From: Candidatus Kuenenia hertensis
GTDB lineage: Bacteria; Planctomycetota; Brocadiia; Brocadiales; Brocadiaceae
DNA length: 64,000 bases
NCBI GenBank assembly: GCA_021646465.1
Contig: SOET01000006.1
Coordinates: forward strand, 62,001-126,000
Direction: 5' to 3'
Position numbers and translations under genes: made by a program. The first letter of the stretch is position 1. Each line of letters begins with the position of its first letter. Positions 10,855 to 48,701 of the stretch are shown here, in pieces. The notes beneath the pieces were generated by a model, which did no database searches, had not been told where the DNA came from, and saw only the letters and a list, made by a program, of their open reading frames with translations.

Positions 10855-10883
10855 GTAGAGACTGGTTTGAAATCTGTCTCTAC
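10855..10883. repeat. REP-like palindrome, GTAGAGAC family (AGGTTT core)
   Basis: 29 bp with GTAGAGAC ... GTCTCTAC ends and a slightly mismatched GGTTT/AAATC core. Confidence 0.75.
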
Positions 10884-13277: not shown

Positions 13278-13375
13278 AACCCCATAAATCCCCCTTTATT
13301 AAGGAGTAGAGACGCATTGCAATGCGTCTCTACATTCCCGCTTGTCTGACGGCAGGCAGGGGGGTTAAGGGGTTG
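13278..13375. repeat. nested repeat: GTAGAGAC palindrome inside a CCCC/GGGG inverted repeat
   Basis: The outer arms (AACCCCATAAATCCCCCTTT and GGGGGGTTAAGGGGTTG) flank a perfect 28-bp palindrome at 13306-13333 with arms GTAGAGACGCATTG / CAATGCGTCTCTAC. The arrangement suggests one repeat inserted into another. Confidence 0.7.
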
Positions 13376-20535: not shown

Positions 20536-20563
20536 GTAGAGACGCATTGCAATGCGTCTCTAT
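20536..20563. repeat. REP-like palindrome, GTAGAGAC family, between dnaA and dnaN
   Basis: Same core as 13306 (GTAGAGACGCATTG / CAATGCGTCTCTA); the last base is T instead of C. Confidence 0.8.
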
Positions 20564-24653: not shown

Positions 24654-24654
<1 letters not shown>

Positions 24655-24681
24655 TAGAGACGCAATATCTTGCGTCTCTAC
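24654..24681. repeat. REP-like palindrome, GTAGAGAC family, abutting the gyrB stop
   Basis: Perfect 12-bp arms GTAGAGACGCAA / TTGCGTCTCTAC around TATC. Its first base is the last base of the gyrB stop codon. It differs by one loop base from the copy inside the RAYT gene at 39325. Confidence 0.85.
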
Positions 24682-38903: not shown

Positions 38904-39024
38904 TTTTAAATCCTGCATGATTGTTAGTAATACCAAGTACACGCATATTCAGGCAAAATTTTATTTTGCGCAGCAATCAAATAATGGATTTTGATAATTG
39001 CCATAAAGGCAAAACTTCCTTACC

Positions 39025-39591
39025 ATGATAGAAACTGTAATGAACACATCTAAATATAAAAACAAATACCGTATTGAAACAACCAGATTAAAATGTTGGA
39101 ATTACGGAGCGAACGGTTATTATTTTGTTACGATTTGTGTCAAAAACCATGAATGCGTTTTGGGTTGCATTGAAAACGGCAAAATGGTCTTATCAGAAAT
39201 CGGCAGGATTACACATCAATGCTGGCAGGAAATTCCGGCACATTTCCCTTTTACCCGCATTGATGCATTTATTGTTATGCCTAATCATATTCATGGCATC
39301 ATTGTGATTGATAAACCATTTGCTGTAGAGACGCAAAATCTTGCGTCTCTACAATATGGCGTTGAATCACCGAAAACCCTATTTGGTCCTCAATCAAAAA
39401 ATTTGGCTTCCATTGTGCGAGGATACAAAACCGGTGTTAAAAAATGGACAACGATAAATAACTTTTCTTTTCAATGGCAATCAAGGTTTCATGAGCGCAT
39501 CATCCGCAACGAACCTGAATTGAATAAAATACGTAAATACATCATAAACAATCCTCTGAACTGGAAGACGGATGAAAATTATAAGGCATGA
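39025..39591 (+). CDS. RAYT (REP-associated tyrosine transposase) containing an in-frame REP palindrome
   Basis: A 188-aa HUH transposase of the Y1/IS200-IS605 superfamily. YYFVTICVKNHECVLG and MPNHIHGIIVID (the HxH pair at 88-90) are diagnostic, and the tyrosine in VRGYKTG is the likely nucleophile. RAYTs mobilise REP palindromes. Here a 28-bp GTAGAGAC palindrome is read through as VETQNLASL (residues 101-109) in a variable loop after the HUH motif. It lies 122 bases after tRNA-Pro(CGG). No inverted terminal repeats or second IS gene were seen. Confidence 0.88.
   Translation: MIETVMNTSKYKNKYRIETTRLKCWNYGANGYYFVTICVKNHECVLGCIENGKMVLSEIGRITHQCWQEIPAHFPFTRIDAFIVMPNHIHGIIVIDKPFAVETQNLASLQYGVESPKTLFGPQSKNLASIVRGYKTGVKKWTTINNFSFQWQSRFHERIIRNEPELNKIRKYIINNPLNWKTDENYKA
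39325..39352. repeat. REP-like palindrome inside the RAYT coding sequence
   Basis: Arms GTAGAGACGCAA / TTGCGTCTCTAC around AATC, in frame with the RAYT gene. It is the same element as 24654-24681 except for one loop base. Confidence 0.9.
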
Positions 39592-39595
39592 CCAG

Positions 39596-39706
39596 ATGGT
39601 TTATAACCTCAACGACCTTACTTCGGAGGAAATTGAGCTTGTGGAGAGGGGAAAGGAGAAGAATTGGAACAAACAGAACAGACTGTATGATATTTCATCG
39701 AAGTAA
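39596..39706 (+). pseudogene. 36-aa remnant resembling the C-terminus of a DNA methylase/restriction protein
   Basis: MVYNLNDLTSEEIELVERG resembles the YGLTEEEIKLVE endings of Eco57I-type restriction-modification proteins. The rest of such a gene is absent. It starts five bases after the RAYT stop. Assignment is by short similarity only. Confidence 0.3.
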
Positions 39707-39845
39707 TGCCATATGCCGCCTTGCGGGAGATATTTGGTTATGATGCAAATCAGCTGGTAGGATTGTATAAGAGAGAAGCCAGGATTTAAGTGATATTGCA
39801 ATGCTTAAGAAAGTAAGGAAATACCTGGAGGAAGAGAATGGATAA
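39706..39845 (+). pseudogene. frameshifted remnant resembling a nucleotidyltransferase C-terminus
   Basis: Frame 1 gives LVGLYKREAR then stops; shifting frame near 39783 gives DLSDIAMLKKVRKYLEEENG. The combined pattern resembles the DLxDIxxLKK endings of small nucleotidyltransferase-family toxin-type proteins. This suggests one frameshift in a gene whose 5' part is lost. Confidence 0.35.
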
Positions 39846-48188: not shown

Positions 48189-48701
48189 TTAAAATATTGA
48201 CGAAAGTTTAATTCTCTCACCCCCCGCGATTGCATCCCATATATCCTTTTCCTCTATATCATTCTTCGAAAGAATATCGACAAAAGCCTGGTACGCCGTA
48301 TTCTTTGATTTCAAGAGTTCTTCCGCACCCTTTTCAGTGTAAAAATATCTGCTCATAAGCGTTTCAGACTGTTTATATAGACGGGCTCCGGCAAGATCTT
48401 TTTGGGTTCCTATATCTTCTTCATACTCAGCCAATACTCCTTTATCAACGTAGTAGAGACTTAAACATGCCCGGGCACTTCTTACATCTAAAAAACGAAT
48501 CTTCTCTTTTTTTGATATGATTTCCTTAATTTCAGGAGTGGCATAAATTCCCCATATTATTTGCATATTCTTTTTAACTCTTTTCATTTTCCCTGCGGAT
48601 ATCGGGGCATGCGCGTGAGAAGGCTTACTCCCCTTTTTACTACTCAAAGCTTTTTCATGGCTTAAATATTTTTCCATAAACTTTTCCGGCGCTTTTACCA
48701 T
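48189..48701 (-). CDS. 170-aa protein of unknown function in the moxR-bat operon
   Basis: No signal peptide, transmembrane segment or recognised family. A basic N-terminal 50 residues (KALSSKKGSKPSHAHAP) leads to a helical part with ATPEIKEIISKKEKIRFLDVRS and AYQAFVDILSKNDIEEKD. The frame has good codon use and lies between the BatD-like and batA genes on the same strand, so it is likely expressed with them. It is not a usual member of moxR-bat loci. Confidence 0.65.
   Translation of the reverse strand: MVKAPEKFMEKYLSHEKALSSKKGSKPSHAHAPISAGKMKRVKKNMQIIWGIYATPEIKEIISKKEKIRFLDVRSARACLSLYYVDKGVLAEYEEDIGTQKDLAGARLYKQSETLMSRYFYTEKGAEELLKSKNTAYQAFVDILSKNDIEEKDIWDAIAGGERIKLSSIF

Follow-up and report, generated by a model that had tools for sequence, protein, structure and literature searches.

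The window analyzed here is a stretch of 64,000 nucleotides from Candidatus Kuenenia hertensis (contig SOET01000006.1, positions 62,001 to 126,000 of the forward strand), whose forward-strand open reading frame at 39025-39591 encodes a protein of 188 residues that, judged from its sequence features, is an intact RAYT (TnpAREP; class 2 TnpAY1), a kind of transposase presumed to copy short hairpin repeats (REPs). It matches the NCBIfam model NF047646 (REP_Tyr_transpos; E-value 9.9e-14) with a score of 51.4 bits, which is below the curated cut-off of 80; the same model is matched by all 19 aligned members of the family, and Pfam gave no match for the window protein. The PDB entry nearest to its AlphaFold model (mean pLDDT 77.7) is 4er8 (E-value 1.8e-6; 152 alignment columns; 20% identity; TM-score 0.53 by query length), the structure of a RAYT in complex with a REP hairpin. 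In an alignment of 19 homologues the following are invariant: the HUH motif H88-I89-H90 (39286-39294, + strand; columns P86, N87, H88 and H90), the WQ pair W151-Q152 (39475-39480, + strand), and Y172, the probable catalytic tyrosine (39538-39540, + strand), with N176 and P177 of the Y---NP motif. In E. coli TnpAREP the region with the conserved WQ contacts GTAG (PMC6006769), and by analogy the WQ pair might do so here.

The earlier note, made from the sequence alone, had described a perfect palindrome at 39325-39352 inside the coding sequence of an HUH transposase, read as VETQNLASL between the HUH motif and the probable tyrosine, and this description is borne out: GTAGAGACGCAAAATCTTGCGTCTCTAC has perfect 12-bp arms and a 4-nt loop, AATC, which is not self-complementary. 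Adding the flanking T and A extends the stem to 13 bp and the element to 30 bp, TGTAGAGACGCAAAATCTTGCGTCTCTACA (39324-39353, + strand), which is exactly ten codons; hence the frame puzzle previously seen in a 28-bp element (nine codons plus one base) presents no real problem. The REP is read in frame as A-VETQNLASLQ (residues 100-110), between H88-x-H90 and Y172, and lies about 300 nucleotides inside the gene, away from its start. With its GTAG...CTAC ends it conforms to the double-foot pattern GT[AG]G...C[TC]AC. Residues 103-118, comprising most of the REP-encoded peptide, have a pLDDT below 50 in the model, suggesting that the linker holding the REP is probably disordered.

In its HuH and Y---NP motifs, double-foot in-frame REP and peripheral variable region the gene resembles TnpAREP subclass 2.4, for which the main text of Quentin et al. 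(2018, PMC6006769) describes double-foot REPs situated in the gene, in frame and generally between HuH and Y, in a variable region termed peripheral and of perhaps little impact. We refer to the window RAYT as subclass-2.4-like, an assignment made by features and independently of the published clustering. It differs from that subclass in the absence of flanking REPs: other than the internal one, no copy of GTAGAGAC lies near the gene, the next being at 24654 and, unpaired, at 48453. REPs flanking the gene, forming a REPtron, are usual in described RAYTs, though not universal. Given the lack of a flanking REP and the near-absence of dispersed copies, the window RAYT may be inactive now.

The gene lies at or near a rearrangement point (window 39018-39773), 121 bp after a tRNA-Pro gene, because in G002, a genome of the same genus, the sequence to its left (ending at 39017) and that to its right (starting at 39774) fall on separate contigs; for the same reason the boundaries of its insertion are unreadable from G002. 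No clean empty site was found in the same-genus genomes, and the only known RNA family in the region is the tRNA-Pro.

The window contains 10 occurrences of GTAGAGAC, where 0.52 would be expected. As previously noted, a copy differing by one loop base is present, at 24654-24681 (between two genes, recorded without a strand), 14.7 kb from the gene. Pattern searches of the organism's own genome recovered this as the one other copy of the exact element (at most 2 mismatches), together with 84 GTAGAGACGC-N8-GCGTCTCTAC elements (at most 3 mismatches), mostly with other loops. A different RAYT, on contig C40 (L093), carries the type of the latter in its linker and may be the one to which they belong. 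A recent insertion from this abundant GTAGAGACGC family is unsupported, as the loops are not the same and the gene's exact element is close to unique. The proposal that the element had jumped into its own transposase gene thus stands in part: an in-frame REP does occupy the HUH-Tyr linker of a RAYT, as it does in homologues, but a recent jump in this genome is not supported, given the single other copy and the presence of the identical 28-mer in two homologues (L017 and L018), and inverted in a third (L019), whose proteins are only 52-58% identical to the window RAYT. Additional REPs, representing two or more types, lie in the window at 10855-10883, 13306-13333 and 20536-20563, one of them slightly decayed and AGGTTT-like and two with the loop ATTGCAAT. 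Elsewhere in the genome (L012:1501-1528; contig C25:73769-73796) a GTAGAGACGC REP is read in frame as VETQGIASLR in the middle of a 209-residue open reading frame that reads as a tyrosine recombinase/integrase; among 15 sampled own-genome REPs it is the sole one inside a long open reading frame.

Relatives of the gene were searched in 59 genomes, almost all of them belonging to the same order, and a homologue is present in 46; to 73 full-length homologues from these relatives were added 90, most of them from other phyla, giving a set of 163. In-gene palindromes of equal strength are found in 103 of these 163, versus 1-4 after codon shuffling, and in 22 of 416 neighboring control open reading frames, with a density of 0.055 per kb in the controls versus 0.99 in the RAYTs; the shuffles and controls rule out a chance palindrome. 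Almost all (98 of 106 in-gene palindromes) are situated in the linker after the HUH motif, with their centers 10-57 residues behind it, and they are encountered in Brocadiales and many other lineages, including Bacteroidota, Cyanobacteria, Chloroflexota, CPR, Spirochaetia and Proteobacteria. That palindrome-bearing genes have a longer HUH-Tyr span is weakly supported (median 91 versus 86.5 residues, p 0.013, across mixed subclasses). The in-gene element is not indispensable, since about one-third of the homologues have no intact palindrome, with decayed remnants all that is left in some.

Several variants of this anatomy were observed. Some linkers (L069, L085, L093, L114, L145, L167 and L084) contain several REPs or half REPs in series and are lengthened by in-frame repeats; others (L123, L139, L124, L161 and L109) contain perfect or near-perfect palindromes of 40-48 bp in which the flanking linker bases are mirrored too, e.g. 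GGACGGCGTGGTAGAGACGCAATGCATTGCGTCTCTACCACGCCGTCC. Two homologues (L118 and L130) have no REP in the usual linker and carry one about 37 residues before the HUH motif, perhaps in a turn between two early strands; the L118 open reading frame has three palindromes. In L076 (G012:C1:3094300-3095010) one and a half tandem REPs in the N-terminal half are accompanied by a frameshift near the usual linker, and it is likely a pseudogene caught after REP insertion.

The majority of the in-gene palindromes are GTAG...CTAC double-foot REPs, 98 of which sort into 38 types, and these types are linked to the RAYT lineage. In 58 RAYTs a palindrome is also present outside the gene, at a distance of up to 700 bp, and in 38 of these an external palindrome matches the internal type (permuted mean 4, maximum 9). 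On a RAYT tree built without the linker, many of whose forks are weak, the types change 44 times, with a minimum of 37 and a shuffled mean of 77. In a single genome with three dominant REP types (G024), the linkers of three RAYTs hold two of those types and a near type (L066). The stems themselves covary, with 308 of 312 inner pairs intact versus 163 expected by shuffling. Replacement nevertheless occurs: L047 and L021 are about 70% identical and have different REPs, and half-by-half identities gave no sign of the C-terminal half having been swapped together with the palindrome. Partial or duplicated REPs are present in the linkers of L028, L019, L025 and L030. RAYTs recognize their cognate single-stranded REPs and were concluded to co-evolve with them (Corneloup et al. 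2021, PMC8266576).

To gauge retention, we compared 45 disjoint nearest pairs of homologues with 50-80% backbone identity, picked regardless of palindrome sequence; the comparison was repeated in this form because an earlier one, grouped by palindrome, was biased. At least 27 of the 28 palindrome bases are kept in 16 pairs, where less than one would be expected from the backbone third positions, which at identical residues are about 54% identical. Likewise, in ungapped, apparently orthologous insertions (e.g. L063/L079, L072/L070 and L054/L058) all bases are kept at 41-60% identity of backbone third positions. One could suppose that the encoded peptide is kept for the protein's sake, with the palindrome as a by-product, and VETQNLASL is indeed common to L016, L017 and L018. 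We hold this to be very improbable, since the peptides of different types (VGANNYSPLQ, CRGGSRTAPT, GRDTVHRVPT and RRGTACRAPT) are unrelated, the region is predicted to be disordered, and the in-gene REPs use two reading frames across the homologues and also occur inverted. These frames and inversions rule out conservation at the level of the peptide and show that it is the DNA that is kept. According to the earlier note, relatives specifying the same loop residues with non-palindromic codons would speak against its reading; the opposite is seen, the nucleotides being kept while residues and frame change.

How the bases come to be kept is a distinct question, on which the copy number of the elements bears. 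In G052 and G053 the in-gene copy is alone in the genome (at most 2 mismatches), contrary to the earlier expectation that genomes with this RAYT would be enriched in the exact element. The in-gene copy is also the only one of its type in G010 (at most 3 mismatches), G001, a one-contig genome, has one decayed copy besides it, and in each of G028, G029 and G030 the one exact GTAGAGACGC element lies within the RAYT. Where the in-gene copy is alone in its genome, there is at present no other from which to refresh it, and its conservation points to a constraint on the DNA itself, although donors may have existed in the past.

The sequence could also stay constant if one enzyme kept re-inserting one and the same REP. 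On this view RAYTs would prefer nearby single-stranded DNA, such that REPs would often land in or near their own gene; of these hits only the in-frame ones in the flexible linker would survive, and repeated re-insertion would keep the copy fresh, with no selected function. To such tolerated insertion and turnover we accord a real, albeit minor, probability. It fits with the REPs flanking many of these genes, with the tandem, partial, duplicated and degenerate REPs in several linkers, which show that insertion is ongoing, with RAYTs broken at or near the linker (L076 and L100), with the in-frame REP of the same family in the tyrosine recombinase (L012), and with the view of intragenic REPs as tolerated in loops in PMC3733652 and in the main text of PMC6006769. 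However, it sits poorly with perfect conservation in G052, G053 and G010, where no other copy is available for re-insertion, and with the apparently orthologous insertions that retain every base over diverged backbones. The data favor a cis-acting DNA element tied to the specificity of the enzyme over a neutral passenger.

A cis-acting role might alternatively lie in autoregulation, with expression of the enzyme limited by a hairpin in the RAYT mRNA or by the RAYT binding this REP, in the gene or in its transcript. The enzyme and element are cognate and the hairpin predicted in the transcript is very stable (-31.2 kcal/mol for 91 nt, z -5.9), but the element lies about 300 nucleotides into the gene and elsewhere in it in L118 and L130, and stability by itself demands no lineage-specific sequence. 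We consider autoregulation improbable.

The reading that we somewhat prefer, from the sequence comparisons above, is a self-contained REPtron, a gene that would hold its cognate REP internally as a DNA site acting in cis. The cognate REP would be retained in the gene's own reading frame, within a disordered linker of the protein, as an inherited cis element at the nucleotide level. When the gene becomes single-stranded, the palindrome would fold into a GTAG-footed hairpin recognized by its own enzyme; the RAYT would bind and process this hairpin, and the element would be kept on that account. Enzyme and substrate would be physically inseparable, with the same bases encoding both the protein linker and the DNA hairpin, and the gene could be transferred and seed REPs without a flanking or dispersed copy.

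Parts of this arrangement have precedents. GTAG REPs and intragenic REPs were described by Di Nocera et al. (2013, PMC3733652), with GTAG-tagged palindromes and in-frame insertions in coding regions as seen here; those insertions lie in many unrelated genes, with replication and repair genes prominent, whereas in our set the site that recurs is the RAYT itself. The E. coli RAYT/TnpAREP REPtron (4er8; PMC8266576) shares the fold, the catalytic motifs, the GTAG-footed hairpin substrate (putative in our case) and the co-evolution of enzyme and REP, but unlike the window gene it has its REPs outside the gene, as imperfect palindromes with a bulge. Rickettsia palindromic elements (RPEs) are likewise palindromes in frame inside genes (PMC3733652 and general knowledge). 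In contrast to the RAYT-internal REP, they are scattered over unrelated genes. We know of no report of an RPE inside a cognate transposase.

The presence of REPs inside the gene is itself known since 2018 (PMC6006769); the main text of that work reports this presence, suggests that the region has little impact, and contains nothing on sequence conservation, lineage linkage or sole-copy cases. In the related literature, including PMC6006769 apart from its supplementary files, we found no prior report of these three features. What is new here is that the REP type follows the RAYT tree, that it is retained letter for letter over long evolution, and that it is sometimes the sole copy in the genome; the repeat thus resembles a maintained DNA signal more than an accidental insertion. 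More tentatively, at a confidence slightly short of even, we propose for this RAYT subclass as a whole that selection maintains the in-gene REP as a cis element, which would make the gene a one-piece REPtron, serve as a barcode of its substrate through horizontal transfer, and allow it to seed new REP families. These observations address the questions of how REPs come about and why every RAYT is paired with a REP of its own. A REP retained letter for letter in the gene would be a built-in label of the substrate of the RAYT, such that the gene by itself would reveal cognate pairs, in many phyla, without guessing from its flanks.
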